A stretch of 64,000 bases of DNA from Gammaproteobacteria bacterium (GTDB taxonomy: Bacteria > Pseudomonadota > Gammaproteobacteria > Nevskiales > Nevskiaceae), in assembly GCA_026398815.1 (NCBI GenBank), contig JAPLSA010000014.1, forward strand, positions 1 through 64,000. The letters run 5' to 3'. Shown here in pieces: positions 38,983 to 56,160 of this stretch. The notes below the pieces were generated by a model that ran no database searches, was not told the origin of the DNA, and saw only the letters and a program-made list of their open reading frames with translations. A program made the position numbers and the translations under genes. Positions within the stretch are counted from its first letter, which is position 1, and each line of letters opens with the position of its first letter.

Positions 38983-40293
38983 GTGCAAATCAGCATTTTC
39001 GGAATGGGCTACGTCGGTGCCGTCTGCGCGGCGTGCCTGTCGGACTACGGCCATGATGTCATCGGCGTCGACGTGTCCGCGCTGAAGGTCAAGCTGATCA
39101 ATTCCGGCCAGTCGCCGATCGTCGAGCCGGGCCTCGGCGAACTGCTGGCCAAGGGTGTGGCCACCGGCAAGCTCAAGGCCACCACCGACACCGAGGAAGC
39201 GATCCTCGGGTCCTCGCTGACGATGATCTGCGTCGGCACGCCGAGCAAGCGCAACGGCGACCTCGACCTGCGCTATGTCGACCAGGTGTGCCGCGAAATC
39301 GGCGCCGTGCTGAAGACCAAGGCCGCGCGCCACACGGTGGTGGTGCGCAGCACCGTGCTGCCGGGCACGGTCAAGAACGTCGTCATCCCGGCGCTCGAGC
39401 AGTCGTCCGGCAAGAAGGCCGGCGTCGACTTCGGCGTGGCGGTGAATCCTGAATTCCTCCGTGAAAGCACCGCGATCGCCGACTACCGCGAACCGCCGAT
39501 GACGGTCATCGGCGAACTCGACGCGGCTTCGGGCGAAGGCCTGGCCGAGATCTACTCGGTGCTGCCGGCGCCGGTGTTCCGCCGCCCGATCGAAGTGGCG
39601 GAAATGGTCAAGTACACCTGCAACGTCTGGCATGCCACCAAGGTCACGTTCGCCAACGAGATCGGCAACATCGCCAAGGCTTGCGGTGTTGACGGCCGCG
39701 AAGTGATGAAGCTGATCTGCGAAGACGACAAGCTGAATCTGTCGGCCTACTACATGAAGCCGGGCTTCGCCTTCGGCGGGTCCTGCCTGCCGAAGGACCT
39801 GCGTGCGCTGAACTATCGCTCGACCCAGGTCGAATCGGACAACCCGATGCTGGCCTCGATCATGCGCAGCAACGCCACCCAGGTTGATCGCGCGTACAAC
39901 CTGATTGCCGGCTTCGGCAAGCGCAACGTCGCCCTGCTGGGCCTGGCATTCAAGTCCGGCACGGACGATCTCCGCGAAAGCCCGCTGGTCGACCTCGCCG
40001 AAATGCTGATCGGCAAGGGCTACTCGCTGAAGATCTTCGACCGCAACGTCGACCACGCACGGGTGATGGGCACCAACAAGGACTACATCGACTCGAAGAT
40101 CCCGCACGTCTCGAAGCTGCTGACCTCGAGCCTCGCGGACGTTGTCGACAGCGCCGAGATCATCGTGCTGGGCAACAAGGACCCGGAATTCGCCGATGTG
40201 GTGGCCAAGCTGAAGCCCGGCGTGAAGCTGGTCGACCTCGTCGGCTTCATGCAGACGACGTCGACGGCCGAAGCCCAGGGCATCTGCTGGTAA
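38983..40293 (+). CDS. algD: GDP-mannose 6-dehydrogenase
   Basis: Oxidises GDP-mannose to GDP-mannuronic acid with two NAD+, the committed step of alginate synthesis. A GTG start at 38983 with AGGGA upstream gives 436 aa, the length of Pseudomonas AlgD; the track's 487-aa start adds a nonsense leader. Motifs: the NAD-binding ISIFGMGYVGAVCA, SPIVEPGL, the GTPSKRNGDLDL segment, NPEFLRESTAI, the catalytic-Cys loop FGGSCLPKDLRAL and the C-terminal FKSGTDDLRESP, ending in GICW as in known AlgD. The GTPSK and GGSCLPKD context and termination in GICW favour AlgD over UDP-glucose dehydrogenase. First gene of the alginate operon. Confidence 0.96.
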   Translation: MQISIFGMGYVGAVCAACLSDYGHDVIGVDVSALKVKLINSGQSPIVEPGLGELLAKGVATGKLKATTDTEEAILGSSLTMICVGTPSKRNGDLDLRYVDQVCREIGAVLKTKAARHTVVVRSTVLPGTVKNVVIPALEQSSGKKAGVDFGVAVNPEFLRESTAIADYREPPMTVIGELDAASGEGLAEIYSVLPAPVFRRPIEVAEMVKYTCNVWHATKVTFANEIGNIAKACGVDGREVMKLICEDDKLNLSAYYMKPGFAFGGSCLPKDLRALNYRSTQVESDNPMLASIMRSNATQVDRAYNLIAGFGKRNVALLGLAFKSGTDDLRESPLVDLAEMLIGKGYSLKIFDRNVDHARVMGTNKDYIDSKIPHVSKLLTSSLADVVDSAEIIVLGNKDPEFADVVAKLKPGVKLVDLVGFMQTTSTAEAQGICW

Positions 40294-40324
40294 GTTCGTC
40301 CCCCGCCGTTCCCGCGAGCCCGTC

Positions 40325-41863
40325 ATGAGTGAATCCAGCCCGGTTGATGCACCGCAATCCGATTCTTCGTGGCAGTCGTTGCTCGACGATGCCGCGGGCT
40401 GGCTCCTGCTGCTCGCAGTCGTCGGCGGGCTGGCGCTGCTGCTGCCCGGCTTCACGTTCGATCCGGCCGAGTCGCACTTCCTGATCGCGGTCGGCGTCGT
40501 CGGGCTGTGGCGGTACGCACTCCGCGCACTACACTTCGTACGGGCAATGTGGTTCCTGTACGTGGCTTATCCGCGGATGCGCGAACGGGCGGTAAAGGCC
40601 GGCGCAGCCTCGGATCCGTCGCACGCCTACTTCATGGTCACCAGCTTCCGGATCGACGTCGAGACGACGGCCCGGGTGTATCGGGCGATCCTGGAGCAGG
40701 CCATCGAGTGCGGCTATCGCAGCACCATCGTTGCTTCCATCGTCGAATACGGCGATGAGCTGCTGTTGCGCGCGCTGTGGGAAACCTACCAGCCCCCAGA
40801 GCGCATCTCGCTGAAGATCGTCCGCATCCCCGGTACCGGCAAGCGCGATGGCCTGGCGCACGGCTTCCGCGCCATCGCCCGTGATTGTCCGGATCACCGT
40901 GCGCTCGTCGCAGTGATCGACGGCGACTCCGTCCTCGTTCCCGGCATGATGCGCAAGTGCGCGCAGATGTTTCACCAGCTGCCGGACGTCGGCGCGATGA
41001 CCACCAACGAGTTCTGCACAGTGCTCGGCTCGAAACTGATGAGCGAGTGGCACAAGCTGCGCTTCGCGGAACGTCATTTGAACATGTGCTCGATGGCACT
41101 GAGCCGCCGGGTGCTGACGCTGACCGGCCGCATGTCGGTATTCCGCGCCCAGATCGTCACTCAGCACTCGTTCATCTCGGATGTCGAGAATGACTCGATC
41201 CTGCATTGGCGCCTCGGCCGCGTGAAGTTCCTGACCGGTGACGACAAGTCGTCGTGGTACAGCGTCGTCAAACACGGCTGGCGCACGTTCTATTTGCCGG
41301 ATGCGGCCATCCAGACCATCGAGCATCCGCCCAGCCCTAGCCTGTGGAAGAGCAGTCGCACGCTGATGTTCCGTTGGTACGGCAATTCGCTGCGCCAGAA
41401 TGGTCGCGCCCGCGAACTCGGGCCGACTCGGCTGGGCTGGTTCACCTACTACGTGCTGCAGGACCAGCGAGTACAGATGTGGACCGGCCTGCTCGGCTTG
41501 CTCGCCTCACTGTTGGCCAGCATCCACTTCAACTTCAATTACCTGATTGCCTTCTTGGTCTGGATCGCGATTACCCGCTGCCTGATGTGCGTCATGTTGA
41601 TGGTGGCAGGGCACCGGGTCGGACCGATGTACCCGCCGCTGATGTACTACAACCAGATTCTCGGATCGGTCATCAAGATCATCGTGTTCTTCTTCCCCGA
41701 TCGGCAATCCTGGACGCGGCAGAAGACCACGCTGACCAAGCACCTTGACCCGTTTCACGCCCGCTTCAACACGCTGTCGTCCCGGATCATGCTGTTCTCT
41801 GCCTGCAGCGTGTTCGCGGCAGCAGTGATCACGATCGCGACTTTCAAATCATCATTCGGCTGA
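40325..41863 (+). CDS. alg8: Alginate polymerase glycosyltransferase Alg8
   Basis: Inner-membrane family-2 glycosyltransferase that polymerises GDP-mannuronate into polymannuronate. The 512-aa protein has two N-terminal membrane helices, a cytosolic GT-A domain with VAVIDGDSVLVPGMM (the DxD-type donor site) near residue 200, the acceptor-side segment FRWYGNSLRQNGRARELGP, and C-terminal helices. It is slightly longer than Pseudomonas Alg8 because of the polar N-terminus. It lies 31 bp after algD and needs Alg44 as partner. Confidence 0.95.
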   Translation: MSESSPVDAPQSDSSWQSLLDDAAGWLLLLAVVGGLALLLPGFTFDPAESHFLIAVGVVGLWRYALRALHFVRAMWFLYVAYPRMRERAVKAGAASDPSHAYFMVTSFRIDVETTARVYRAILEQAIECGYRSTIVASIVEYGDELLLRALWETYQPPERISLKIVRIPGTGKRDGLAHGFRAIARDCPDHRALVAVIDGDSVLVPGMMRKCAQMFHQLPDVGAMTTNEFCTVLGSKLMSEWHKLRFAERHLNMCSMALSRRVLTLTGRMSVFRAQIVTQHSFISDVENDSILHWRLGRVKFLTGDDKSSWYSVVKHGWRTFYLPDAAIQTIEHPPSPSLWKSSRTLMFRWYGNSLRQNGRARELGPTRLGWFTYYVLQDQRVQMWTGLLGLLASLLASIHFNFNYLIAFLVWIAITRCLMCVMLMVAGHRVGPMYPPLMYYNQILGSVIKIIVFFFPDRQSWTRQKTTLTKHLDPFHARFNTLSSRIMLFSACSVFAAAVITIATFKSSFG

Positions 41864-41897
41864 TCAGTCCCCACTCTCACGTCACGGAAACACTTGC

Positions 41898-43073
41898 ATG
41901 GCTCAATCCAGCCCCTCCCGGATCGTCCACGAATCCGAAGCGCAACGTCAGTTCGTCAGAGTCAAACTGCCGGCGACGATCCAGTTCACCTCCGATGGCA
42001 CTCGCAAGCAGTTTTCGCTGCACGACATTTCGGCCGGGGGCTTCAGCTTTGATCCCGGCCAGACCACATTCAAGGTCGGCTCGGTGTTCACCGGCCACGT
42101 GGTGCTGAATGTTGATTCGGTCGGCTTCACGATTCCGGTGACCTTCGAAGTCCGTACGGTGGATGCGCAGACCGGCCGCGTCGGCTGCTTCTTCCAAGAA
42201 CTGGGAATCAAGGAAGTCTCCGCGTTGCGGCAGATCATCACCTCGTTCCTCGGTGGCGAACTGGTCAGCACCGGCGAAATGCTGACCACGCTGTCGCGCG
42301 AAAACTTCGTGCGTGCACGCAACGCTGGCGGCGGTCTCAGCGCTGGCGGCAAAGTTCGCGCGGTTCTCGGCACCGCTGTAGCGCTGGCCGTCGGCGTGAT
42401 CGCCTTCGGTTACGCCTCTTTCAAACTGTACGACCTGGTCTTCGTAACCCACGCCACGGCAGCGAAGGTTGCAGCAACGACATTCACCATCTCGATGCCT
42501 CGCGATGGAACCTTCTTTCCTCTGGTCGAGGAAGGTGGATCCATCAAGAAGGGTCAAGCCACCGGTCAGTTCGAAACTGCCCTTCTCCAGGTGGTCGAGG
42601 GAATCTCCGGCTCGTTCAAGCTTACTGCCCAGCAGCTTACGGAACTGGTGGGGCAGCAGTTGCGCGGCTCCATTGCCAGCCCATGTGATTGCATTGTCCA
42701 GAAATCATATGCAGTCGGTGGCCAGTACGTGCTTCGCAACCAGGCCGTGATGGAACTCGTGCCGGAAGGAACAAAGCCATACATCCTGGCCCGATTCCAC
42801 TACGACCAGATGAAGCGGCTTCCGATTGGCCGCGAAGTCGTGCTGAGAGTCAACGGATCTCCGGAAACCCTCACCGGCAAAGTCACCAGCCTGCGAGTGC
42901 TTCCAGCCCCGACTATCGACAGCAATGGTCTGAACGACCTGAATGGTCTCGACACCAGTGCTGCCATCACCGACATCATCGTTGTCATCACTCCAGATGT
43001 CGAACTTGAAACCAGCAGAATCGATCAGCCGGTCGAGATCTTCGCCGATCCGCTGCACAAGTATTTCTGGTGA
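41898..43073 (+). CDS. alg44: Alginate co-polymerase Alg44 with c-di-GMP-binding PilZ domain
   Basis: A 391-aa protein that binds c-di-GMP and activates Alg8. The PilZ domain (about 14-115) keeps the ligand motifs Arg17-xxx-Arg21 in RQFVR and DISAGGF near residue 43. One transmembrane helix follows near residues 155-178. The periplasmic part resembles a membrane-fusion (HlyD-like) protein, with the lipoyl/barrel segments PLVEEGGSIKKGQ and VGGQYVLRNQAVMELV. Retention of the arginines and DxSxxG indicates that polymerisation remains under c-di-GMP control. Confidence 0.95.
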   Translation: MAQSSPSRIVHESEAQRQFVRVKLPATIQFTSDGTRKQFSLHDISAGGFSFDPGQTTFKVGSVFTGHVVLNVDSVGFTIPVTFEVRTVDAQTGRVGCFFQELGIKEVSALRQIITSFLGGELVSTGEMLTTLSRENFVRARNAGGGLSAGGKVRAVLGTAVALAVGVIAFGYASFKLYDLVFVTHATAAKVAATTFTISMPRDGTFFPLVEEGGSIKKGQATGQFETALLQVVEGISGSFKLTAQQLTELVGQQLRGSIASPCDCIVQKSYAVGGQYVLRNQAVMELVPEGTKPYILARFHYDQMKRLPIGREVVLRVNGSPETLTGKVTSLRVLPAPTIDSNGLNDLNGLDTSAAITDIIVVITPDVELETSRIDQPVEIFADPLHKYFW

Positions 43074-43080
43074 TGGTGTG

Positions 43081-44856
43081 ATGCGTAAAGCCGTCATTGC
43101 CGGACTCACTCTCGCTAGTGTCGTTGGTGCCGGCTGCTCATCGGTCGGCTTCAACACAGGGCTACCGGTATTGACCAAGAATGGGCGAGGCATTCTTGTC
43201 AGCGAAACAGCCGGACCTCCCGACCTTGAGCGTGGACGACATGCACGACTAGTCGGCAAGCCGCAGGAAGCACTGCTGGATCTCAAACCCCTTGCTGAAG
43301 CAGGGTATCCAGACGCGATGACGTTGTTGGCGGCGACGTACCTGGATTTTGGTACCGTCGATTCTCGGGCTGAATCCGAAAAATGGTATCGGCGTGCGCT
43401 GCACGCGCGACCGGATGCCGGTCTGTCCCTCGCACGACTTCTGATCGGTTATGGCAAGCGTGACTATCTTCCTGAAATCAACTCGCTCATCGACGATGCG
43501 GTGCGCCGGGGAAATGAAGAAGTCGATAGCGTCAAGCTACAACGCTACATGCAGTTTCCCGATCTCGACACCCAGAACGACGGCGACCTCATCGCCCAAC
43601 GTGGGCTGAAGTCAGATTTTGTAAGCGTTCAGGTTCAGTCACTCGTCTGGCTGCGGCAGAACATCGCCAAAGGAAACAATGCTGCCCTCCTCGAAGCGAA
43701 TTGCCGGACGCTGCTAAGTGTCGAACCGGGTTGCTACATCGACCTCGCACACTTCTACAGATATCAGCACAAGCAAGATCAGCTCGAAAAGATTCTCGAC
43801 GCTGCTCTGCTCGCATTTGCTGCAGGCGCCAACGGCACCGCACAAATCGACGATTCGGCACGCCTCTATCAGCCGCCAACGCAGTATGCGTCCCTGGCTG
43901 GTCGCCTGGCGGCCGCAATGGTCGACGAGATCAACGAAACCACCGACGGCGATGTACCGGAGCAGGAGAGCGCAACTGCTACCACCGGTCAACCCGATCT
44001 GGATTTCGAGGATGACGAGTTCGAAGGTGCCAACCCGAAAGCGCCGTCTGCTGCTGACGTCTCGGTCGCCACTCCGGAACGCAAGGAGCCACCAGCGCCT
44101 GGTACTGCTCCTGCTGAAGGCAATGCGTCTTCGCAGAACGTCGAACTGGCAAACAAGGTCTTGAGGTGGATGCTTGCACGGGGCGGCGAGTTCTCCGTGG
44201 AGGCGGCCATCGTTGCCGTGCATTACCCATTCCTCCTTCCTGACATCGATCTCGAAGCAACCCTGCGTCCCGCAGCGAACGACAAGAACCCTGCAGCTGT
44301 TTCAGCCCTCGCTGATCTCCTGTTCAACAGTCAAAGAATTGCAACTCGCCGCCCCCTCGAAGCGGTCGCACTCTATAAGCAGTGTCTGGGTTACGTCGCT
44401 ACTGAAACGCGTGCGAATTCACGGCTGGGACGGGTGTATTCCATGGGAATCCTTGGCGATCCCAATCCGCAAATGGCGCTGAAGCATTACCTGAAGGCAG
44501 CTCGGGCTGGCTCGGTCGAATCGTACTCAAGCCTCGCTCGTATGTTTCTCGGCATGTCGGGAATTCAGGTCAATCGGGTCAATGGCTACGTTTTTGCGAA
44601 GCGATCTGAGGACGCCGGACGACCGATGATGATGCGAATTCGCAAGCTGAAGCGGCTGAATGAGCTAAAGCTCGACCTCGAATCCGCGGACATGTTCGAA
44701 GTGCTGCAGGTAAAGCTGCTTGATCAGATCACCAGCGAAATGACGGCAGCCGAGATTGCCGAGGCGCAACGTCTGTATCAAATGGAACGTGCCATCCAGC
44801 CGGTACTCAAGCAGCCCATACCGTCTGACATCTACACCAGAGGCCAACAACAATGA
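43081..44856 (+). CDS. algK: Alginate export lipoprotein AlgK with an acidic insertion
   Basis: Outer-membrane-anchored TPR/Sel1-like scaffold that supports the AlgE porin and contacts AlgX. The start at 43081 gives a lipoprotein signal with lipobox GAGC; the track start at 42943 lies in alg44. Helical repeats are visible (LVGKPQEALLDLKPLAEAGYPDAMTLLAATYL; AESEKWYRRALHARPDAGLSLARLL; NPQMALKHYLKAARAGSVESYSSLARMFLG). The 591 aa exceed the ~475 of Pseudomonas AlgK. Much of the excess is a disordered acidic, Pro-rich insert near residues 283-355 (DLDFEDDEFEG, PAPGTAPAEG). It overlaps algE by 4 bp (ATGA). Confidence 0.9.
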   Translation: MRKAVIAGLTLASVVGAGCSSVGFNTGLPVLTKNGRGILVSETAGPPDLERGRHARLVGKPQEALLDLKPLAEAGYPDAMTLLAATYLDFGTVDSRAESEKWYRRALHARPDAGLSLARLLIGYGKRDYLPEINSLIDDAVRRGNEEVDSVKLQRYMQFPDLDTQNDGDLIAQRGLKSDFVSVQVQSLVWLRQNIAKGNNAALLEANCRTLLSVEPGCYIDLAHFYRYQHKQDQLEKILDAALLAFAAGANGTAQIDDSARLYQPPTQYASLAGRLAAAMVDEINETTDGDVPEQESATATTGQPDLDFEDDEFEGANPKAPSAADVSVATPERKEPPAPGTAPAEGNASSQNVELANKVLRWMLARGGEFSVEAAIVAVHYPFLLPDIDLEATLRPAANDKNPAAVSALADLLFNSQRIATRRPLEAVALYKQCLGYVATETRANSRLGRVYSMGILGDPNPQMALKHYLKAARAGSVESYSSLARMFLGMSGIQVNRVNGYVFAKRSEDAGRPMMMRIRKLKRLNELKLDLESADMFEVLQVKLLDQITSEMTAAEIAEAQRLYQMERAIQPVLKQPIPSDIYTRGQQQ

Positions 44857-46253
44857 AAACAAAATTCTCTGCAGCCTTAGCTTCGGCGATTTTCCTAGCT
44901 GCGCCGCAGGCGGTCGCCCTCCAGATCAACAGCGCGCTTCGAACCGCCGTCGGCGGCCAGGCGGATGGCCCTCGGGATCTGGGTCAAAACGATCTGTCAA
45001 GCAATGAAATTGTTTACTTGAACTTTTCACCTCGGGTTTCCATCGAGTTCAGTCAGGATTGGACGATGTACCTCCGCGGGAGAGCGTTTCTCCCCTCAGG
45101 CGATGTCATTGACAATGATGAAACCCAGTCAACCCTGCAGCGCGAAACAAAAAGCTTCGTCAAGCTAGACGAGGCCTGGATCCGCTACAGCGGATTCACG
45201 AGCTACCCTGGCGAGTCGGTGAGAATCGGACACCAGTTTGTCCGCGAAAACGATCGCAGCTGGTTGGGTCGTGACGTCGATGCGATCTATTGGGTCCTCA
45301 ATACAACTCGGTTCACGTCCAGCGCCGGCGTCTTCTACCAGTTCTCCCCATATCGCTCCGACGGCATTGACCTTCCGCCAGAGCAGCGCAAGCGGATATA
45401 TGGCCACGGTAATTTTTCAACGGATTGGCTTCCGGAGCATCAGGTCGGCTTTCGAGCATTGCATGCACGCGATGTCGATGGTTCATTGCCGAGCCTCGCC
45501 GCAACAACAGCAGCAGACTCGAAGCTTGAGGCCGTCAATCTGACCTGGTTAGGCGTCTACTTCAGTAATGGTTACCTGAACGCTCGCAATCCTAATTCGA
45601 TCAAGTACTGGGCCGACGTCACCTACTTGTTCGGGAACACAGTAACAGCAGGTCTGGCAAACGATCGATCGGTCGCGCGATTCAATCGGCAAAGTATTGG
45701 GGCAGTCGCCAGCACCGTCGCCGTTCGTTGGCGTCCAGGTGTATGGCCAGTTTCGGTTGGCGCCGAGTACGCCTACAGCGGCGGCGGCGGAAAGAGTCAA
45801 TACCGCCAGAGTGGAATCCAAGGCAATTCGGTTCAGTTCACTGGTGCCTCCGCCAGTTCCTATCGATATAACGAAGCACTGAGAGCTCAGCTTGGCAATC
45901 TTCGAATTGCCACTCTTTATGCGTCTTTGAACCTGCCTTCAAACGATTTCTCCATCGTCCTTCAGAAGTTTAACAAGGACGATCGCTTTGCCCCGATTGT
46001 GACGAACAATTTGTCGGTCGGCACCGTCGGAGGCTCAACCGATGTTGGATACGGTCTCGATTTCATCGCAAGCCATTATCTGCAAATTCCTGCAGTACTA
46101 CGAAGCCTCGACGATGGCGGTGGCCTGATGACTGAAGATCCGAGGTCATCAATTCGCCTTCGTGCCTCATTGTTCAATCCAGGAAACGCCTACGCCGCCG
46201 GGTCCGACATTAATTATCGAGTCATCGTTGAGGCGACGCTATGGTGGTTCTGA
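44853..46253 (+). CDS. algE: Alginate outer-membrane export porin AlgE
   Basis: An 18-strand beta-barrel through which alginate leaves the cell in Pseudomonas. The 466-aa protein has a signal peptide (MKTKFSAALASAIFLAAPQAVA) and then alternating barrel strands. Diagnostic text includes LDEAWIRYSGFTSYPGESVRIGHQ, RSWLGRDVDAIYWVLN and the aromatic final strand ending LWWF, typical of a BAM substrate. Translationally coupled to algK by ATGA and overlapping algG by 13 bp. GC content is clearly lower than in algD or algI. Confidence 0.93.
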   Translation: MKTKFSAALASAIFLAAPQAVALQINSALRTAVGGQADGPRDLGQNDLSSNEIVYLNFSPRVSIEFSQDWTMYLRGRAFLPSGDVIDNDETQSTLQRETKSFVKLDEAWIRYSGFTSYPGESVRIGHQFVRENDRSWLGRDVDAIYWVLNTTRFTSSAGVFYQFSPYRSDGIDLPPEQRKRIYGHGNFSTDWLPEHQVGFRALHARDVDGSLPSLAATTAADSKLEAVNLTWLGVYFSNGYLNARNPNSIKYWADVTYLFGNTVTAGLANDRSVARFNRQSIGAVASTVAVRWRPGVWPVSVGAEYAYSGGGGKSQYRQSGIQGNSVQFTGASASSYRYNEALRAQLGNLRIATLYASLNLPSNDFSIVLQKFNKDDRFAPIVTNNLSVGTVGGSTDVGYGLDFIASHYLQIPAVLRSLDDGGGLMTEDPRSSIRLRASLFNPGNAYAAGSDINYRVIVEATLWWF

Positions 46254-47887
46254 GCCGCCAGATGCTGGTCAAGCTGATTGCGTTCTTATTCGCAATTGTT
46301 GCCGCCGTTCAGCCCTGCTACGTAAATGCAGCGGCTGATGACGATGTGGGTCAGGACGCTGAGGGCGCCTTGAACGACGAATCATACGGCGAGGACGGAG
46401 CCGATGATCTGGAAAGCAACTCGAACTTGCGAAAGCTGACTGACGCCGAAGTTCGAGCGGCGTATGCGCTCAAGAAAGAGGAGCCCGAGTCACTTCCCGC
46501 ATTTCAAGCACCGAAGCTCCCTGATCTCAGCGGCTACAACTACGGCGCTGTCTTGCGCAAAGTCGACAAGAGCAAGAAAGGAACGGTATCCCTCGGTTCA
46601 ATTCTTTCCGAACCGGGATTCAAGGTTCTTACCTATAACGGATCGGTTGGGCTCTCGGCATTCGCTCGACTTCAAGGTGGCGGACTCCGTGCAATTGTTA
46701 TCAGTGGCGGCTTAGTGACCCTCAAGGATATTGCGGCTGCGATATCCGGTGACTATTTCCAGGACCTTGGCCAAGGCAGGTATCTTGCACGGCTCCCCAT
46801 CCTTGTTCGCCACGGCGCTACGTTACTCGTTGACAAATCGGTCAAACAGTTTCGGCTCGGCGCGGAAAAGGGCTCACTCCTTTCAATCGAAGGGCGTTTG
46901 GTACTGAGTGATTCGGAGATTGTCGGCTGGGACGAAACTCGCAATCGAACTGCCGAACTAAAAGACCCCAAAAAATTCCGCCCGTTCATCGTGAGCTGGG
47001 GTGGATCCGATATATATCTTGCACGCAGCCGCGTAGCACATCTTGGTTATGCCGCGAAGAAGGCCTATGGCCTCTCGCTTTCTCAGTATGGCTCGCTTCA
47101 GCTTCAGTCAAAGGTATGGCCCCGTCCCACTGGATGGATTATCGAAACGGTAATCGAGGACCTTTGGTACGGTCTATACACATGGGAAGCTGACGGCGTT
47201 GTGATGCATTCAAATGTCATGAAGAACAACATACTTTATGGCTTTGACCCTCATGACCGCTCGCGACATCTGATCATCGCGAACAACGATGTTTATGGAA
47301 CGAAAATCAAGCACGGCATCATTATTTCCCGTGAAGTCAACAACAGTTGGATTTTCGGCAACAGGACTCATGACAATCACAAGGCCGGAATTGTTCTAGA
47401 TCGTCAATGCTCAAACAATGTTGTCGCAAACAATATCGCGACTCAGAACGGTTCAGATGGAATCATCATATCTGAGAGCTCTAAGAATATTGTTTGGAAC
47501 AATGTTGTTTCCGGAAACAACAACCATGGCATTCGACTCAGAAACAGTACGGATGTGCGCGTGCAGGACAACGTAGCTCTGGCAAATGGACTGACCGGGG
47601 TCTACGGTGCAGCTGTTGATCTGTCAGGAACAACTCGTGATTTCGTTCATGACTTTTACACGAAGCAACTGGGAATGACCGTTGTCGGCGGACAGTACAC
47701 TTCTAATGGAAGTGGGCCGTTCGGCTTGGATTACCCGACGAAGGCGTCGTTCTATGGAGTCGACCTCCGGACACCGCAGCGGCAGCTCGGATTCAGATTG
47801 GGCGGGATGCTTCCGCCGTTTCAAATTGAACTTCTAGATATATTGCTGAATCAAAACAAGGTTGCTGTTGTTCAGGCTAAAAAGTAA
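46241..47887 (+). CDS. algG: Poly(beta-D-mannuronate) C5-epimerase AlgG
   Basis: Periplasmic right-handed beta-helix enzyme that converts some mannuronate to guluronate during export. The 548-aa protein has a signal peptide (possible starts at 46241 or 46262), an acidic linker, then the helix coils. The catalytic DPHD motif is at about residues 336-339 (FDPHDRSRHLIIANN), followed by the expected coils KHGIIISREVNNSWIFGN and GIVLDRQCSNNVVANN. Its start lies inside algE. Local GC is low: one 60-base line beginning at 47281 contains only 24 G/C. Confidence 0.95.
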   Translation: MVVLSRQMLVKLIAFLFAIVAAVQPCYVNAAADDDVGQDAEGALNDESYGEDGADDLESNSNLRKLTDAEVRAAYALKKEEPESLPAFQAPKLPDLSGYNYGAVLRKVDKSKKGTVSLGSILSEPGFKVLTYNGSVGLSAFARLQGGGLRAIVISGGLVTLKDIAAAISGDYFQDLGQGRYLARLPILVRHGATLLVDKSVKQFRLGAEKGSLLSIEGRLVLSDSEIVGWDETRNRTAELKDPKKFRPFIVSWGGSDIYLARSRVAHLGYAAKKAYGLSLSQYGSLQLQSKVWPRPTGWIIETVIEDLWYGLYTWEADGVVMHSNVMKNNILYGFDPHDRSRHLIIANNDVYGTKIKHGIIISREVNNSWIFGNRTHDNHKAGIVLDRQCSNNVVANNIATQNGSDGIIISESSKNIVWNNVVSGNNNHGIRLRNSTDVRVQDNVALANGLTGVYGAAVDLSGTTRDFVHDFYTKQLGMTVVGGQYTSNGSGPFGLDYPTKASFYGVDLRTPQRQLGFRLGGMLPPFQIELLDILLNQNKVAVVQAKK

Positions 47888-47931: not shown

Positions 47932-48555
47932 ATGGTTCGACTAAAAAGTTGGTTTGGTGCTCTCATCTTTCTGATGGCAGCGGTACTCCCGATGCAATCG
48001 CAGGCGCAGCTTTATGCAAAGGGCGCGCCGCCCGGATCAGCGTTCGTCCGCGTTCTGAACGGCACAGCTGCGCAAAGCCCATCCGGCTTTATCGGAGAAA
48101 CTGCACAACCTGCGCTCCCGGCATTCACCGCAGGGCAGTTCATCTTCCTGCCACCTGGCGACTATCCCGTACAGCTCGGCAGCCGGAAAGAAACCTTCAA
48201 ACTTGAAGCCGATCGTTTTTACAGCATCGCGTACCTCCCGGATTCGATGCGGAGCTTTCAGCTCGAGGGCTTCAAGAGCCAGTTGAAAGCAATGGTCATC
48301 ATGATGAATCTCCTCCCCGATAAGACGCTGTCGTTGAAAACGGCGGATGGCAAGGTCACCGTCCTGGATGCCATTGCACCCTTCAAAGCCGGACAGCGAG
48401 AAATCAATCCTCTTTCCGTTTCCCTTGGTCTTTTTGATGGTGATAAGAAGATCATCGATGTTCCTGCAGCAACGTTCGAACGTGGCAAAGCGTCGAGCTT
48501 GATTGTCGGCGGCACCTCTACGGTCCCGATCCTTACGTGGGACGAACAGAAGTAA
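47932..48555 (+). CDS. algF: Alginate O-acetylation adaptor AlgF
   Basis: A 207-aa periplasmic protein needed for alginate O-acetylation; in Pseudomonas it is proposed to link AlgJ and AlgX in acetate transfer. It has a signal peptide (MVRLKSWFGALIFLMAAVLP, cleavage near SQAQ), then the family start LYAKGAPPGSAFVRVLNG and two beta-sandwich-like halves. The length is close to the usual ~216. In Pseudomonas algF comes after algJ near the operon end; here it lies between algG and algX. Confidence 0.92.
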   Translation: MVRLKSWFGALIFLMAAVLPMQSQAQLYAKGAPPGSAFVRVLNGTAAQSPSGFIGETAQPALPAFTAGQFIFLPPGDYPVQLGSRKETFKLEADRFYSIAYLPDSMRSFQLEGFKSQLKAMVIMMNLLPDKTLSLKTADGKVTVLDAIAPFKAGQREINPLSVSLGLFDGDKKIIDVPAATFERGKASSLIVGGTSTVPILTWDEQK

Positions 48556-48588: not shown

Positions 48589-49986
48589 ATGTATTCAGTT
48601 GGACGTAACATCGCTATCGGAATGCTGATCGCAAGCGCACAGCTTGCATCAGCTCCGGCAAATGCAGAAACGACAGATAGTGCTGGTGAGTTCAAGTACT
48701 CAGCCGAGACGTGCTGCACTGTCTGCCCGAAAGCTGCTGATCGTGATGCCTACGTCAGTGAGTACATGCGTGGATATCGCGTCGTTGTGGAAGGTAAGGA
48801 CGGCTGGTTGTTCAGAACGGAAGCAGAACTTCAGTGGCTTGAACCGAACGACCCGGAGATGTGGTCATCGTTGAAGCGCTTGATTGCTGCGCTTAACGCC
48901 AGGGGGACCCAAGTCCTGATGTTTCCTCAGCCGCCGCGCGGCCTGGTGGAAACCAGGATGTTGAAAGATGAAACACTGCAGAAATTCGATATCAATGAGT
49001 TGCAGCGTCGTTATAGCCAGCTCATCGATCAATTGAGGTCGATCGGCGTGCTGGTCGCTGACGGAACTGCATTTAGCCACAACACGGAAAGTCAGTACTT
49101 CTACAAGCGCGACGGTCACTGGAAAGCGTCTGGTTCGCAGCGCGCTGCAGAAATGATTGCATCGAAAGTTCGCGAAGCTGGCTTCGACTTTCCGGCGAAG
49201 CAATATGAAACCTTGGAAGTCGGCCTCGTTGGCTCGCGCGGCACGATGTCCCATGTTGTTTCAACCCTGTGCGGATTGATGTATCCGATGGAATATGGTC
49301 CCGCCTACCAAACCAAAGCGCCGGCGACGGATGACTTGTTCGGTGACGAGGCGGCGCCAGAGGTTGCGCTCGTGGGCACGAGCTTCAGTGCAACCCCAAC
49401 CTACAATTTTCTGGGTTTTCTTCGGAAAGCGCTGAACACCGATATTTATCAAGCCGCGATGGCCGGCGGCGGCTTTGACGGCGCCTTGTCACAGTACCTG
49501 GTGTCGGATCTTTACCAACAACATCCTCCCAAGCTCATTGTTTGGGAGTTTCCGTATCAGCAGTTGCAAAGAACCAACACCGCGGTGATGCGGCGTGTGC
49601 TTCCGCTGGTCGGCAATGGTTGTCGTGGCAAGAAGCCGATCATGAGTAATACCGTGAAGCTTTCGGGGAACAATGAGCTTGTCGAGGCTGTGGTTAACGG
49701 CGGCGAGCAGTTCAACCCCATACCAGCGAAGGATCTTTGGCTTGATTTTCAGTTCTCGGATCCGAACGTCCGCGTCATGAAAGCCGAAGTTTGGTACGCC
49801 GACGGCAAATCTCAGATTCTTAACGGCCGTTATAACTCCTACACGAAAATGGACGGTCGGTTTGCACTCGAAACAAACTACACGCCTGACGCCGAGATAC
49901 AGCCAATCGTGTCGGTGCGCGTTCAGAGCATTACTGAAACGGCGAAGAATACGACCGTGACCACAACTGTGTGCAAACGCAATTGA
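48589..49986 (+). CDS. algX: Alginate O-acetyltransferase AlgX
   Basis: Periplasmic SGNH-type acetyltransferase with a C-terminal carbohydrate-binding module that places acetyl on mannuronate. The 465-aa protein carries a signal peptide (cleaved near ANAE), the paired cysteines of CCTVCP, the catalytic Asp/His of KRDGHW and the nucleophile Ser in VALVGTSFSATP, as in known AlgX. The C-terminal module starts near residue 345 (VKLSGNNELVEAVVNGG). The export complex AlgK-AlgX-AlgG is thus fully encoded. Confidence 0.95.
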   Translation: MYSVGRNIAIGMLIASAQLASAPANAETTDSAGEFKYSAETCCTVCPKAADRDAYVSEYMRGYRVVVEGKDGWLFRTEAELQWLEPNDPEMWSSLKRLIAALNARGTQVLMFPQPPRGLVETRMLKDETLQKFDINELQRRYSQLIDQLRSIGVLVADGTAFSHNTESQYFYKRDGHWKASGSQRAAEMIASKVREAGFDFPAKQYETLEVGLVGSRGTMSHVVSTLCGLMYPMEYGPAYQTKAPATDDLFGDEAAPEVALVGTSFSATPTYNFLGFLRKALNTDIYQAAMAGGGFDGALSQYLVSDLYQQHPPKLIVWEFPYQQLQRTNTAVMRRVLPLVGNGCRGKKPIMSNTVKLSGNNELVEAVVNGGEQFNPIPAKDLWLDFQFSDPNVRVMKAEVWYADGKSQILNGRYNSYTKMDGRFALETNYTPDAEIQPIVSVRVQSITETAKNTTVTTTVCKRN

Positions 49987-49991
49987 TCGAT

Positions 49992-51092
49992 ATGTCACGC
50001 ATACGTCCCATCTTGTTGGTGCTCCTGGCGGGAACTGGAGCGCTGCTGCAGCCTCGGTGTTTTGCGGCCAACGACTCTTTAGTAGCGCCGCAGGGCTTCT
50101 CTTCGTCGATTCAGTCGAATCAACGTACATCGTCGGATTGTGAAAGTGCTCCGGAACCATTCACTGGGACGCTGAACTTCCCCAGCAAATATGAAGGCTC
50201 GGGGTCGTCACGAGACGAATTGAATGTCGATGCGGAGCGTCGATACAAGGATGCGACGTCATCAATTTCATCTTTTGAAATGGGCATCGCGTCTCTTTCT
50301 TCCCGCTATATACAGCGTGGATCCGACGCCGATGCCGGTTGTGTTCTCTCTTGGCTTGATGATTGGGCTGAACATGGCGCGCTGCTCGGCAAGGCGGAAA
50401 CGCACACCGGGAAATCTGTTCGCAAATGGGCGCTTGCCGCTATCAGCTCGTCCTATCTCAGACTGCAAAAGTCAAAGAGCGCGCCCCTTAAGAAACATGC
50501 AGGCGAGCGAAGCCGTATTGAGGCCTGGTTACGAGCCATTGCAGCCAAGGTTGCTGCAGAGTGGCCTGTGGACGCACCAATCAACAAGATCAACAACCAT
50601 TTCTATTGGGCTGCCTGGAGCCTTGTTTCTACTGGAACGGTATTGAACGATCGTGCCATGTTCAACCAAGGCCTCGAGATTTACAGAATTTTCGAACGGC
50701 AGATCACCGCCGAGGGCTTGCTTCCCAACGAGGTTGGTCGGCGGTCGAGAGCACTTGGTTATCACGCATATGCGCTTGCTCCGTTGGCAATGATTGCAAC
50801 TTTTGCGGTTGCTAACGGCGAAGTCGTTGATACAGGACCGAAGTCTCCCCTTTCTCGCCTTGCGAAAACTGTCTTTGACGGTTTTCAGGCACCGGCAGGG
50901 TTTGCCGGTCTTGTCGGCAGCAAGCAGGAAGTCAGCACGAATGTCGCCACCAACTTCAGTTGGCTGGAACCCTACTGCTCGATTGCGGCCTGCGACACCT
51001 CGATGACGGAGTTTTTGCAACGGAATCGTCCGTTCAAGTCGACGAGACTGGGGGGAGATCTCACTACGCTATTTGGAACGAAGCAGCCATGA
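49992..51092 (+). CDS. algL: Alginate lyase AlgL
   Basis: Periplasmic (alpha/alpha)-barrel polysaccharide lyase of family PL5 that clears alginate stranded in the periplasm. The start at 49992 (MSRIRPILLVLLAGTGALLQP) gives a signal peptide; the GTG at 49971 is less likely. Length is 366 aa. Diagnostic catalytic segments are INNHFYWAAWSLV and LPNEVGRRSRALGYHAYALAPLAMIA, which contain the Asn/His/Arg/Tyr active-site set. Its stop overlaps the next ATG by 4 bp. Confidence 0.93.
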   Translation: MSRIRPILLVLLAGTGALLQPRCFAANDSLVAPQGFSSSIQSNQRTSSDCESAPEPFTGTLNFPSKYEGSGSSRDELNVDAERRYKDATSSISSFEMGIASLSSRYIQRGSDADAGCVLSWLDDWAEHGALLGKAETHTGKSVRKWALAAISSSYLRLQKSKSAPLKKHAGERSRIEAWLRAIAAKVAAEWPVDAPINKINNHFYWAAWSLVSTGTVLNDRAMFNQGLEIYRIFERQITAEGLLPNEVGRRSRALGYHAYALAPLAMIATFAVANGEVVDTGPKSPLSRLAKTVFDGFQAPAGFAGLVGSKQEVSTNVATNFSWLEPYCSIAACDTSMTEFLQRNRPFKSTRLGGDLTTLFGTKQP

Positions 51093-51949
51093 CGCGCTTT
51101 CATGCAGCAGTAGGTGCTTCGTTGATGCTTTCGCTTTCAGGCGCGTACGCGAACGAGGCCGATGCACGAAAGTTCATGGCGTACTGCGAACACGAGTTGA
51201 ACGACACCAAAAATTACGACGAAGCGGGAAAGATTTGCAAACGTGTCCGGGAAGATATCAAGGTTCTTCTCGGCATTTCGCCGCTTTATCTGCAAAGCAT
51301 TGTCAACGAAGCCGATTCCAAGTGGGCCCTGGGAAACTATCCCGAGGCTTTCAATCTTTATTCCGAAGCTGCAGATGTCGCCATCAAGCTTGGCGACATA
51401 AACAAGGTTCGGGAACTGCGAATCCGGCAGGCTGAAGCCGAACTGTTTCGCGGAAAATCCTTCGAAGCTGAAATATTGCTGCGCGATGCTCTGCGACGCC
51501 TTCAAAGCTCTCGCGGAAGCAACCCGCTGCAGGAAGCTGATCTCCTGTCGCGTCATGCAGAAGTGCTCGTGACGCTAGGCCAGGCGAAGGCAGCGATGCA
51601 GGGTTATCTTGCTGCGTTCGCGAAACTTGATGCCGACTCCATCAAACATCGCCCCATCCTGCTGAAGACTCAACTGCGCTATGCAGAGCTTTTTGAGCGC
51701 CAGAGTCGATATTCAGGCGCGACGGCGAGTTATTTGAAGTTGTTGCAACTCGCCTCATCCAAACCGACGAATCCCGAGTATGTGGCTATTGCCTACGGGC
51801 GCTTGGGATGGATCTCAGAGACTTTAGACAAGCCTGCAGACGCCTTGTCCTATTACCGGCGGCAACTTGAAGTCATCGAAAAAGATCCGGCTCAAGTGGC
51901 TGCGGTTGACGAGTTGCGGAAGAAAATTATTCAGCTTGAAAAGAGTTAG
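51089..51949 (+). CDS. Periplasmic TPR protein inserted in the alginate operon
   Basis: A 286-aa protein starting at 51089 inside the algL stop (ATGA overlap, so translationally coupled). The signal peptide is MTRFHAAVGASLMLSLSGAYA. The mature protein is a helical-repeat solenoid: WALGNYPEAFNLYSEAADVA, LFRGKSFEAEILLRDALRRL, LGQAKAAMQGYLAAFAKL, FERQSRYSGATASYLKLLQLA and LDKPADALSYYRRQLEVI are TPR-like units. It is not AlgK, which is present separately, and has no counterpart in the Pseudomonas or Azotobacter operon order. A scaffold role between AlgL and the acetylation enzymes is inferred from position. Confidence 0.85.
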   Translation: MTRFHAAVGASLMLSLSGAYANEADARKFMAYCEHELNDTKNYDEAGKICKRVREDIKVLLGISPLYLQSIVNEADSKWALGNYPEAFNLYSEAADVAIKLGDINKVRELRIRQAEAELFRGKSFEAEILLRDALRRLQSSRGSNPLQEADLLSRHAEVLVTLGQAKAAMQGYLAAFAKLDADSIKHRPILLKTQLRYAELFERQSRYSGATASYLKLLQLASSKPTNPEYVAIAYGRLGWISETLDKPADALSYYRRQLEVIEKDPAQVAAVDELRKKIIQLEKS

Positions 51950-52019
51950 TGCTGAATCTTTATCAGGCATTCAGTGCAGGGCCGTTGTACGCCGACATTA
52001 TTAAAGCCAGGGAATTTTG

Positions 52020-53183
52020 ATGAGTAAGAATCACCCGTCGTCCGGGCCGGAGCTGCATAGCGCGAGCCGCAGTTATGCCCCAGTGGGCGTCGTCTTTGCA
52101 TTGACGGTTGGTGTGCTTTCGGCGCTGAGCCTTCCCTCTTTGCTGTCTTATCGTGCTCCGCCAGTCAAAGTGATCAACGGAGACTTGGTCAGGAACTTCG
52201 AGGAGCATTTCGACAAAGAGTTCCCGCTGCGTACGGCCAGCATCAATTTCTGGACCGCATTGCAGCTGGTGTTGTTCCATGAAGGCAAGACCGGTGTTCT
52301 GCTGGGTACCGACGGCTGGCTCTACACGAACGAAGAGTTTCATGTGCTTCCGCGTTGGGAGCAGATCTTCGACCAGAACCTCGAGCTGATTCGCTGGACG
52401 CAGGCCACCCTTGCCGATGCCAAGGTTCCGTTGGTCGTCGTCGTAGTGCCGGAAAAGGCGCATGTCTATCCGGAGTACATCAACGGTCATCGCCAGGCCA
52501 GCGCCCATGCCACAGTCATGGCACGGCTGCGCGCCGCCATCGGCGAACAGACCACGCTGATCACGCTCGACGACACATTTGCAGCGGCAAAAGTCCAACA
52601 GCCGCTGTTCTTCCATACCGATACCCACTGGACTCCGGCTGGCGCCAAGCTAGCCGCACAAGCGGTGACTCGCGCGATGGCCGCCAAGGGGTTGGCTACC
52701 AAGACTGGCGATGCCGACGCCTTCGAGACCACCGAACAGCCGGAAGCCACGCTGGTCGGCGACCTGCTGTCATTTCTGCCGTTGGAGCCGATGTTTCCGA
52801 GCCTGATGCCGAAGGCTGATATCTATGTTCCTGTGGTGACGAAGGCGATCGAAAAGGAAGCCAGCGCCGAATCCCTGCTCAGCGACGAGTCGATTCCGGA
52901 AGTGGCTGTGGTCGGCACCAGCTATACGGCCAACGACCGCTGGAACTTCCAGGGCTTCCTGAGCGAATTCCTCAACGAGCCGCTGGCCGACTATTCGAAG
53001 GAAGGCATCGGCCCGTTCCCGCCGATGGCGCAGTTCCTGACGAGCCAGGACTACGCCGGGCACAAGCCGCGCGTGGTGATCTGGGAAATCCCGGAGCGCT
53101 CGCTGCTCGGCAAGGCTGCCCTGAAAGGCATCGACCTGCCAGAAGCACTCACCACCAAGCTGGCGTCCATCCACCCGAGATAG
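52020..53183 (+). CDS. algJ: Alginate O-acetyltransferase AlgJ
   Basis: Membrane-anchored SGNH-like enzyme of the AlgX/AlgJ family. ATG 52020 follows an in-frame TTG at 52017; length is 387 aa against ~391 in Pseudomonas. It has an N-terminal signal anchor (VGVVFALTVGVLSALSLPSLL), GKTGVLLGTDGWLYTNEEF, the Asp/His pair in FHTDTHWTPAGAKLAAQ and the Ser motif VVGTSYTANDRWNFQGFL. It probably takes acetyl from AlgI. It is followed by algI after 3 bp. Confidence 0.92.
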   Translation: MSKNHPSSGPELHSASRSYAPVGVVFALTVGVLSALSLPSLLSYRAPPVKVINGDLVRNFEEHFDKEFPLRTASINFWTALQLVLFHEGKTGVLLGTDGWLYTNEEFHVLPRWEQIFDQNLELIRWTQATLADAKVPLVVVVVPEKAHVYPEYINGHRQASAHATVMARLRAAIGEQTTLITLDDTFAAAKVQQPLFFHTDTHWTPAGAKLAAQAVTRAMAAKGLATKTGDADAFETTEQPEATLVGDLLSFLPLEPMFPSLMPKADIYVPVVTKAIEKEASAESLLSDESIPEVAVVGTSYTANDRWNFQGFLSEFLNEPLADYSKEGIGPFPPMAQFLTSQDYAGHKPRVVIWEIPERSLLGKAALKGIDLPEALTTKLASIHPR

Positions 53184-53186
53184 AAC

Positions 53187-54617
53187 GTGGTCTTTTCCTC
53201 GAACGCGTTCCTGCTGCTGTTCCTGCCGCTGTTCCTGTTGCTGTACTACCTGACGCCGAACACCCGCCGCCTGCGCAACTATGTGGTGCTGGTGGCCAGC
53301 TATGTGTTCTACGGCTGGTGGCGTATCGATTTCCTGACGCTGCTGATATTCGTCACGCTGTTCAATTTCTGGATTGGCGGGCAGATCGGTGCAGCCGGCG
53401 CGCGCAGCGAGAAAGCACGCAGCTGGATGCGCTTCGGTGTGACCATCGATCTGGCCGTGCTTGGCTACTTCAAGTACCGCGACTTCGGCATCGACAGCTT
53501 CAATTCGATCATCACGGCGACCGGCCTCGAGCCGTTCAGCCTGTCCGAGCTGCTGCTGCCGATCGGCATCTCGTTCTACATCTTCGAATCGATCAGCTAT
53601 GTGATGGATGTCTATCGCGGCAGCGTGAAGCCGACGCGACACCTGGCCGATTTCGCGATGTTTGTCACGATGTTCCCGCACCTGATCGTCGGCCCGCTGT
53701 TCCGCTACAAGGAACTGGCGTCGCAGTTCGAGCATCGCGTCCACTCGATGGACATGTTCGGCCGCGGCGCGGTTCGCTTCATGCAGGGATTCGCCAAAAA
53801 GGTCATCATCGCCGACACGCTCGCGCCGATGGTGAACTACTGTTTCGCGCTTCCCGATCCGAGCACGGCCGATGTCTGGATCGGCGTGCTGGCATACGGT
53901 GTGCAACTGTATTTCGACTTCTCGGGATACAGCGACATGGCGATCGGTCTGGGCCTGATGATGGGATTCAAGTTCGTCGAGAACTTCAACAAGCCCTTCA
54001 TCAGCCAGAGCGTCACCGAGTTCTGGCGCCGTTGGCACATCAGCCTCAGCAACTGGCTGCGTGACTACGTGTTCTATTCGCTCGGTGGTTCGGCGCGCAA
54101 GACGCGGATGCGTCTGCACTACATGACGTTCATGACGTTCCTGATTGGCGGCATCTGGCACGGCGCGGACTGGACGTTCGTGCTTTGGGGAGCACTTCAG
54201 GGAGGATTGCTGCTGATCGAAAGGATGTTGGGCGTGAAAGGAAATCCGACCGGTTTCAAGCTGCATCACTGGGCAATAACCTTCATCGTCGCGGTGGCGA
54301 TGAGCATGGTGCTGTTCCGTGCCGATAGCGTGCCGGCCGCGGTGCAGATGTACAAATCGATGCTGTTCCTGCAGAACGTCGGCTGGATCAGCGAACCCTT
54401 CGCAGGGGCGATCAGCACGATGCAGCTTGCAACGCTTGTGCTGGCGTACGGCCTCGTCATCTTCGAGGGCCTGCGCGAATACGGACCGAAGATCCAGCTC
54501 GGCAGCGAGCGGGTAAGGGTCGTCTCATCGGTGCTGCTGCTGACGCCGCTGTTCTTTCTTGCGATCACGAAGCTGTCGGCGCAAGGGTACTCGGCGTTCC
54601 TGTACTTCCAGTTCTGA
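53187..54617 (+). CDS. algI: MBOAT O-acyltransferase AlgI, first copy (divergent)
   Basis: Inner-membrane acyltransferase (476 aa) thought to pass acetyl groups across the membrane for alginate acetylation. GTG start, MVFSSNAFLLLFLPLFLLLYY. MBOAT features: LLPIGISFYIFESISYVMDVYRG, LYFDFSGYSDMAIGLGLMMGF, EFWRRWHISLSNWLRDYV and the catalytic His in GGIWHGADWTF. The re-entrant loop after LRDY reads VFYSLGGSARKTRMRLHY, departing from the canonical PLGGNRxG...RN form seen in the second copy. It ends KLSAQGYSAFLYFQF, identical to copy 2. Confidence 0.93.
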   Translation: MVFSSNAFLLLFLPLFLLLYYLTPNTRRLRNYVVLVASYVFYGWWRIDFLTLLIFVTLFNFWIGGQIGAAGARSEKARSWMRFGVTIDLAVLGYFKYRDFGIDSFNSIITATGLEPFSLSELLLPIGISFYIFESISYVMDVYRGSVKPTRHLADFAMFVTMFPHLIVGPLFRYKELASQFEHRVHSMDMFGRGAVRFMQGFAKKVIIADTLAPMVNYCFALPDPSTADVWIGVLAYGVQLYFDFSGYSDMAIGLGLMMGFKFVENFNKPFISQSVTEFWRRWHISLSNWLRDYVFYSLGGSARKTRMRLHYMTFMTFLIGGIWHGADWTFVLWGALQGGLLLIERMLGVKGNPTGFKLHHWAITFIVAVAMSMVLFRADSVPAAVQMYKSMLFLQNVGWISEPFAGAISTMQLATLVLAYGLVIFEGLREYGPKIQLGSERVRVVSSVLLLTPLFFLAITKLSAQGYSAFLYFQF

Positions 54618-54666
54618 CGGGCCGATAGAGCTCGCACGCCGCACAATAGCCCCCTGGTGAGGCCCA

Positions 54667-56091
54667 ATGGTTTTTTCGTCGAATGTCTTTTTGCTGCTGT
54701 TCCTGCCGCTGTTCCTGTCGGTTTACTACCTGACACCGAACAAGCGCCGGATCCGCAACTACGTGATCCTGGCCGGCAGCTACTTCTTCTACGGCTGGTG
54801 GCGCATCGATTTCCTCGGCCTGTTCGCTGCGGTCACGATCTTCAACTACTTCGTCGGCTCAGCCATCGGCAATGCCGGTGTCGGGCAGCCATTGGCTCGC
54901 CGCTGGATGAAGCTCGGCGTGGTGGTCAACCTGGCGGTGCTTGGCTACTTCAAGTACGCCAACTTCGGCGTCGCCAGCTTCAACGAACTGATGACCGGGC
55001 TCGGCTTCGAGCCGTTCGTCATGGCGAGCGTGCTGCTGCCGATCGGCATCTCGTTCTACATCTTCGAATCGATCAGCTACATCGTCGACGTCTATCGCGG
55101 TGATGCCGAAGCGACCAAGCATCCGGTGGACTTCGCGACCTTCGTGTCGCTGTTCCCGCACCTGATCGCCGGCCCGATCTTTCGCTACAAGGATCTGGCC
55201 GACCAGTTCGAGCAGCGCGATCATTCCGCGCGCCTGTTCGGCCTGGGCGCGACCCGTTTCATGCAGGGCTTCGTCAAGAAGGTAATCGTTGCCGATACCG
55301 TCGCGCCGCTGGCGGACTACTGCTTCTCGCTGACCAATCCGTCGACCGCCGATGCCTGGCTCGGCGCGCTGGCTTACACGGTGCAGCTGTACTTCGACTT
55401 CTCCGGCTACAGCGACATGGCGATCGGCCTCGGCCTGATGATCGGCTTCCGCTTCATGGAGAACTTCAACGCACCGTACATCTCGCAGAGCATCACCGAG
55501 TTCTGGCGGCGCTGGCATATCAGCCTGTCGAGCTGGTTGCGTGACTACCTCTACATCCCGCTCGGCGGCAACCGCAACGGCAACGCGGCCACCCATCGCA
55601 ACGTGATCATCACGTTCTTCCTCGGTGGCGTCTGGCACGGCGCGAACTGGACCTTCCTGGCCTGGGGCGCGATGCAGGGTTTCATGATCTTCATCGAGCG
55701 CGTGCTCGGCATCAGCGGGTCGCCGAAAACCTTCCGCGTCACGCGCTGGCTGATCACCTTCATCCTGGTGATGATCAGCTGGACCGTGTTCCGCGCCGCC
55801 AGCATCAGCGAGGCCTGGCGGATGTACCAGCCGATGTTCCTGCTGAAGAACGTCGGCGGCCTCAGCGATCCGATGCTGACGATGATTTCCGGCCTGCAGG
55901 TGTCGATGCTGGTCTTCGCTGCCCTCTTCGTGCTGACCGAAGGCGTGCTGGCCTATGGCCCGAAGCGCGCACCGATATCGGGACGAACCCGCACGGCAAT
56001 GATCATCGGCCTGCTGCTGCCACTGTTCGCGATGTCGATCATGAAGCTGTCGGCGCAGGGCTACTCGGCGTTCCTGTACTTCCAGTTCTGA
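54667..56091 (+). CDS. algI: MBOAT O-acyltransferase AlgI, second copy (canonical)
   Basis: A 474-aa paralogue of the preceding gene, closer to Pseudomonas AlgI: MVFSSNVFLLLFLPLFL, YKDLADQF, ATRFMQGFVKKVIVADT, EFWRRWHISLSSWLRDYLYIPLGGNRNG and GGVWHGANWTF with the catalytic His. Long identical DNA stretches with copy 1 (for example around 53561 and 55034) point to tandem duplication or gene conversion. It follows copy 1 by 49 bp and closes the operon before a strong hairpin. algA, the usual last gene, is absent. Confidence 0.95.
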   Translation: MVFSSNVFLLLFLPLFLSVYYLTPNKRRIRNYVILAGSYFFYGWWRIDFLGLFAAVTIFNYFVGSAIGNAGVGQPLARRWMKLGVVVNLAVLGYFKYANFGVASFNELMTGLGFEPFVMASVLLPIGISFYIFESISYIVDVYRGDAEATKHPVDFATFVSLFPHLIAGPIFRYKDLADQFEQRDHSARLFGLGATRFMQGFVKKVIVADTVAPLADYCFSLTNPSTADAWLGALAYTVQLYFDFSGYSDMAIGLGLMIGFRFMENFNAPYISQSITEFWRRWHISLSSWLRDYLYIPLGGNRNGNAATHRNVIITFFLGGVWHGANWTFLAWGAMQGFMIFIERVLGISGSPKTFRVTRWLITFILVMISWTVFRAASISEAWRMYQPMFLLKNVGGLSDPMLTMISGLQVSMLVFAALFVLTEGVLAYGPKRAPISGRTRTAMIIGLLLPLFAMSIMKLSAQGYSAFLYFQF

Positions 56092-56098
56092 GGAACCG

Positions 56099-56160
56099 GG
56101 CCCCATCGCCGCGTGCGCGCGGCGATGGGGCCTTCCCGCCTGCCGCGACAATTCGCGGCA
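56099..56160 (+). terminator. Double hairpin at the end of the alginate operon
   Basis: GGCCCCATCGCCGCG and its exact complement CGCGGCGATGGGGCC form a perfect 15-bp stem with a 4-nt loop, 7 bp after the algI stop, followed by TTCCCG. A second stem, CCTGCCGCGA/TCGCGGCAGG, follows directly. The pair likely ends the 17-kb transcript although the T tract is poor. Confidence 0.8.

Follow-up and report, generated by a model that had tools for sequence, protein, structure and literature searches.

Alginate operon and its two algI genes

Alginate is a slime polymer, and AlgI is the membrane enzyme that hands acyl groups across the membrane to this polymer. The window (the whole stretch of DNA that was analysed, positions 1 to 64,000 of contig JAPLSA010000014.1) contains a complete alginate operon in the order algD, alg8, alg44, algK-like, algE, algG, algF, algX, algL, a TPR protein gene, algJ, algI1, and algI2 (Table 1). 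The GTG start of algI1 (copy 1) lies 3 nt past the stop codon of algJ, and the hairpin after algI2 (copy 2) is the probable end of the operon transcript. These two are the only MBOAT genes in the genome, and AlgJ and AlgX are its only two ALGX-domain (AlgX-type SGNH) proteins. Judged from this gene content, both AlgI copies most likely act on alginate. Homologues of the TPR protein, 31-57% identical, are present in the congeners G011, G013, G022, and G016, and none was found in the alginate operons inspected in four genomes from other genera of the family. Two minus-strand open reading frames, 52770-54269 (499 amino acids) and 54859-56175 (438 amino acids), shadow the algI genes and most likely result from the high G+C content.

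Table 1. Features of the alginate locus, with positions in the window
Feature	Position	Strand	Remarks
Operon body, in order algD, alg8, alg44, algK-like, algE, algG	38830..47887	+	Order kept in congeners
algF	47932..48555	+	PF11182
algX (SGNH and C-terminal CBM)	48589..49986	+	
algL, alginate lyase	49971..51092	+	
TPR protein gene, between algL and algJ	50960..51949	+	True start probably near 51085
algJ (SGNH acetyltransferase, ALGX domain)	52017..53183	+	DTH and GTS motifs intact
algI copy 1 (AlgI1), diverged MBOAT	53187..54617	+	476 aa, GTG start; ORF, PF03062; orthologues in G011, G013, and G022 and sister copy in G016
First conserved His, copy 1 H284 (WHISLS)	54036..54038	+	Copy 2 equivalent at 55516-55518; invariant in A1/A2
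Copy 1 altered loop, putatively donor-side, and onset of next helix, residues 297-313 (YSLGGSARKTRMRLHYM)	54075..54125	+	Aligns with DltB DltC-docking region
Catalytic MBOAT His, copy 1 H325 (WHGA)	54159..54161	+	Copy 2 H324 at 55636-55638; invariant in A1/A2; role from PMC12148441
C-terminal FxYxxF acyl-shuttle motif (FLYFQF), copy 1	54597..54614	+	Copy 2 at 56071-56088; role from PMC12148441
algI copy 2 (AlgI2), canonical MBOAT, PLGGNR loop	54667..56091	+	474 aa, ATG start; ORF, PF03062
Copy 2 canonical loop, residues 297-312 (IPLGGNRNGNAATHRN)	55555..55602	+	
Strong hairpin after algI2	56092..56136	+	-42.3 kcal/mol, z -4.1; without long T run

Both predicted proteins match the Pfam MBOAT family (PF03062) above its cut-off, with 108 bits for copy 1 and 116 bits for copy 2, and they are 61% identical end to end in a protein alignment with 2 gap positions. 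At the DNA level, in-register blocks of 77-83% identity lie a steady 1474-1480 nt apart, the pattern of a tandem duplication. A first-pass annotation of the locus had described two full-length tandem MBOAT genes that share long identical DNA and the same C-terminus, and these observations hold. The stretch that it quoted is the longest exact match between the genes (49 nt, codons 122-138), and the C-terminus SAQGYSAFLYFQF is common to both copies.

Both copies have the MBOAT domain and length (about 470-480 amino acids) of AlgI as well as its location in an alginate operon with algJ, algF, and algX. The active-site histidine pair (WHxSL and WHGA) is intact, with H284/H325 in copy 1 and H284/H324 in copy 2, and the catalytic histidine of copy 1 is retained as the annotation had noted (WHGAD, versus WHGAN in copy 2). 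The C-terminal FxYxxF motif, present in 129 of 130 AlgI-type proteins, reads FLYFQF in both. The pattern (P/S/A)LGG(N/S)R with a downstream Asn, which is not established as defining AlgI, is kept in copy 2. Compared with this pattern, copy 1 keeps LGG but has N replaced by S, one residue inserted before the Arg, and Asn313 replaced by Met.

The AF2 models had mean pLDDT values of 90.7 for copy 1 and 91.7 for copy 2. The loop sits between a helix ending at residue 296 and a helix beginning at residue 307 in copy 1 or 305 in copy 2, and in copy 1 it belongs to the parts modelled with lower confidence (pLDDT of 77 for residues 301-310, versus 88 in copy 2). The nearest solved structure to both models was DltB (Z scores of 29.4 and 30.1, rmsd of 3.0 Å, about 361 residues), and above a Z score of 8 only MBOAT folds were matched. 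Identification of either copy as DltB itself was rejected, as the scores of 169.9 and 159.1 bits lie below the NCBIfam TIGR04091 equivalog cut-off of 375 bits.

Retention of the pair in related genomes

The arrangement algJ-algI1-algI2 was found in four genomes of the genus, namely, that of the window (G000), G011, G013, and G022, among 58 genomes sampled from the family, and in the latter three algI1 begins immediately 3' of algJ, as in the window. G016, of the same genus, has the order TPR-algI-algJ-algI (G016:C20:22001-42000), and four operons from other genera carry a single algI in the order G-I-J-F-X-L. No adjacent algI pair was detected in 369 genomes sampled across the class or in other genera of the order. 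A genome from another family of the class has two distant MBOAT genes about 4 kb apart (G174:C53:124892-131210), which are 39 and 47% identical to copy 2. G020 is filed in the same genus as the window and has the operon order G-I-J-F-X-L (G020:C131:1-12000) and the AlgI type found in other genera, which suggests operon replacement or a loose genus boundary. The G+C content of the alginate region is 51-53% in G011 and G022 versus 62-67% in G013 and G016, with algI GC3 values near 0.58 versus 0.9.

The phylogenetic tree placed copy 1 of the four species in one clade (100/100) and copy 2 in another (100/99). The post-algJ copy of G016 grouped with copy 1 (bootstrap of 100/97, or 97/92 with the loop masked), and its pre-algJ copy fell outside both clades. 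Grouping of the pre-algJ copy with copy 2 was rejected by the AU test (p = 2e-9), and a sister relationship of copy 1 and copy 2 without the G016 post-algJ copy was not rejected (p = 0.08). Most simply, the ancestral order would have been algI-algJ-algI1-algI2, and the two lineages would have lost different copies. The algI pair is an old duplication retained in several related species. An ancestral algI beside algJ would have been duplicated within the alginate operon of the genus, probably more than once, and two copies kept.

The reading frame of copy 1 is intact in all four species. For G000/G013, the only pair with unsaturated dS, dN/dS was 0.106 in copy 1 versus 0.061 in copy 2. The ratios in the remaining pairs were lower, but dS was saturated there, and the strength of selection was therefore measured on one close pair only. 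Copy 1 is under purifying selection. The annotation had set beforehand, as evidence against its own proposal, the finding of copy 1 as a decaying pseudogene in sister strains; with copy 1 frames unbroken and dN/dS low across the four species, decay was rejected.

The further suggestion that gene conversion keeps the remainder of the two genes similar did not hold. Silent-site identity between the copies was 0.68 within G000 and 0.69 within G013, close to the values for copy 1 versus copy 2 across these two genomes (0.64 and 0.69), and within G011 and G022 it equalled the chance level expected from within-gene codon shuffling. For the window pair, shared codon bias accounts for much of the DNA identity (0.58 predicted, 0.68 observed), and the excess left above this expectation is also present between copies of different species. 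Because silent identity is no higher within than across genomes, conversion is not needed to explain the similarity, and clustering of orthologues by copy, rather than by genome, gives no support to concerted evolution. Continuing concerted evolution was therefore rejected as the main cause. The 49-nt identical stretch in the window pair would fit a decaying copy 1 or a recent duplication kept alike by conversion, and codons 122-138 may represent a single short conversion tract. However, given the intact frames, the low dN/dS, and the clustering by copy, either explanation of the pair is very improbable.

Divergence of copy 1 from other AlgI proteins

We compared both copies with 121 other AlgI-type proteins, in which 80 alignment columns show conservation of 90% or more. 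Copy 1 differs at 4 of these, A168V and Y296F (each conserved in 121/121), N313M (117/121), and L320I (113/121), and copy 2 differs at 1. Copy 1 thus has V, F, and M at sites 168, 296, and 313, respectively, the first of which lies outside residues 291-325. The near-invariant sites are replaced by the identical residue in copy 1 of all four species.

The loop motif itself varies among the 130 AlgI-type proteins (PLGGNR in 75, PMGGNR in 15, PLGGSR in 12, SLGGNR in 9, and ALGGNR in 5), so that a change of P to S or N to S alone means little. The annotation had stated that copy 1 lost the canonical loop, and this is correct only in part. The L-G-G core is kept and both of these substitutions occur elsewhere, but the Arg is displaced, and unusual changes reach into the next helix (N313M) as well as Y296F. 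As a second finding that would speak against its proposal, the annotation had named such loop variation being common among functional AlgI proteins. This was not borne out, and the inserted residue, which displaces the conserved Arg, and N313M proved peculiar to copy 1.

Under a stricter reference of 201 sites invariant in copy 2 and 13 AlgI proteins of the family, every copy 1 differed at 24 sites, including the start residue encoded by GTG, which is an artefact. The reciprocal test for copy 2 gave 4. The copy 1 changes were enriched at residues 291-325 (7/19 sites, P = 0.003), and helix 1 and the C-terminal part had none at 30 conserved sites (P = 0.019, in a test chosen post hoc); both P values for clustering are modest. 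Between the two copies of the window, identity over residues 291-325 is 43%, among the lowest of any stretch of the pair, and the proportion of invariant positions in this region is 89% among the four copy 1 orthologues and 91% among the four copy 2 orthologues. The copy 1 loop contains 4-5 Lys/Arg residues, versus 2 in copy 2. Copy 1 is also altered outside this region, indicating that general acceleration contributes to its divergence. The post-algJ copy of G016 has 9 of the 23 copy 1 changes (start residue set aside), as expected if the remodelling was stepwise. It carries an intermediate loop, ALGGSRGSESRTYVN, and has A168V and Y296F in common with copy 1.

A second algI might simply increase acetyl flux, with the differences in copy 1 attributable to drift under relaxed constraint. 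This would agree with the longer tree branch of copy 1 and with a duplication that probably happened more than once. However, the loop is nearly constant among copy 1 orthologues while differing strongly from that of copy 2, and drift would not fix and maintain an identical replacement at near-invariant sites in four species. A dosage effect of this kind is unlikely.

Putative donor-side specialisation and its alternatives

By sequence alignment, the copy 1 loop falls on the intracellular DltC-binding segment of DltB, with residues M302, V305, I306, and M309 (PMC11035591). The loop, which the annotation had called catalytic, instead matches this donor-docking element, and the catalytic residues are intact. 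In PatA, the C-terminal Tyr accepts an acetyl group from acetyl-CoA and donates it to PatB, an SGNH protein. The PatAB model has the SGNH partner in contact with helix 1 and the C-terminal part, and the authors extend the Tyr-shuttle model to alginate (PMC12148441). From its alignment to the DltC-binding segment and its additional Lys/Arg residues, the copy 1 loop most likely alters docking of the acyl donor and leaves the hand-over to AlgJ/AlgX unchanged.

We propose that copy 2 is a standard AlgI and that copy 1 is a functional MBOAT in which the cytoplasmic region facing the donor changed step by step before becoming fixed. In both copies, the C-terminal tyrosine of FxYxxF would be acylated by a thioester donor in the cytoplasm and would then pass the acyl group to the periplasmic SGNH proteins AlgJ and AlgX. 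Copy 1, translated beside AlgJ, has a longer and more basic docking loop and would for this reason either accept another acyl donor or bind acetyl-CoA with altered affinity. We infer the activity of copy 1, the topology of its loop, and any shift in donor or kinetics. Among the operon genes, none was recognised as encoding an alternative acyl donor. Overall, we assign a probability of about 0.5 to copy 1 being a functional, donor-side-specialised AlgI paralogue. That copy 1 is specialised at all had been suggested in the first-pass annotation, and this is supported by its conservation in four species, low dN/dS, and a loop that is frozen within orthologues and unlike that of copy 2. Among the specialisations offered there, the distribution of changes (clustered at residues 291-325 and absent from the helices that face the partner in PatAB) favours the donor.

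Partner specialisation, in which AlgJ is supplied by copy 1 and AlgX by copy 2 (or vice versa) and each SGNH protein has its own membrane donor, is unlikely. The two MBOATs are matched by two ALGX-domain proteins in the genome, and algI1 adjoins algJ in the window and in the other three species that bear the block. However, the unchanged helix 1 and C-terminal part are the regions that contact the SGNH protein in the PatAB model (PMC12148441), and AlgX has been described as the final transferase in Pseudomonas and AlgJ as an intermediate (PMC4148444), leaving little need for two donors. A mainly structural or modulatory role of copy 1, as the partner of copy 2 in a mixed MBOAT oligomer, is quite unlikely. 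DltB forms homotetramers (PMC11035591), which makes mixed AlgI oligomers conceivable, and the change in copy 1 falls at a gating and docking element, but the catalytic and shuttle residues are all kept under purifying selection and would be superfluous in a noncatalytic subunit. It is likewise improbable, under the donor-side reading that we prefer, that the acyl group on AlgI1 is of another kind or is supplied by an acyl carrier protein in place of acetyl-CoA, which would yield two acyl decorations via one SGNH machinery.

Both copies resemble AlgI of the Pseudomonas aeruginosa AlgI-AlgJ-AlgF-AlgX system in being MBOAT proteins encoded in an alginate operon beside algJ, algF, algX, and algL and in having both catalytic histidines and the FxYxxF C-terminus. 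In contrast to P. aeruginosa, there are two algI genes instead of one, the order is G-F-X-L-TPR-J-I-I, and copy 1 has a changed, putatively donor-side loop and V/F/M at near-invariant sites. PatA-PatB shares the logic of an MBOAT with a separate SGNH protein and a C-terminal Tyr shuttle but acts on peptidoglycan, a different polymer, and no diverged pair is described for PatA in that work (PMC12148441). DltB, of Dlt D-alanylation, is the closest solved fold, and the copy 1 loop aligns with its DltC-binding helix HC. However, DltB is without C-terminal shuttle helices, which DltX supplies, whereas both AlgI copies carry FxYxxF themselves, and DltB uses a carrier protein, not acyl-CoA; none of the operon genes here was recognised as dltC-like.

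AlgI, the alginate operon, and the AlgI mechanism are already known. Among the open-access papers searched, none described an algI tandem or a fixed pair with one donor-side-diverged copy. To our knowledge, the choice of acyl donor by MBOAT proteins in polymer acylation is poorly known. Should the two copies prove interchangeable, the pair would amount to no more than a gene duplication specific to this lineage. As a natural pair within one operon, with equal catalytic and partner-facing parts and different regions for putative donor docking, the two genes offer a ready comparison, and their loop of about 17 residues would make them a natural loop-swap system for whether that element sets donor choice.
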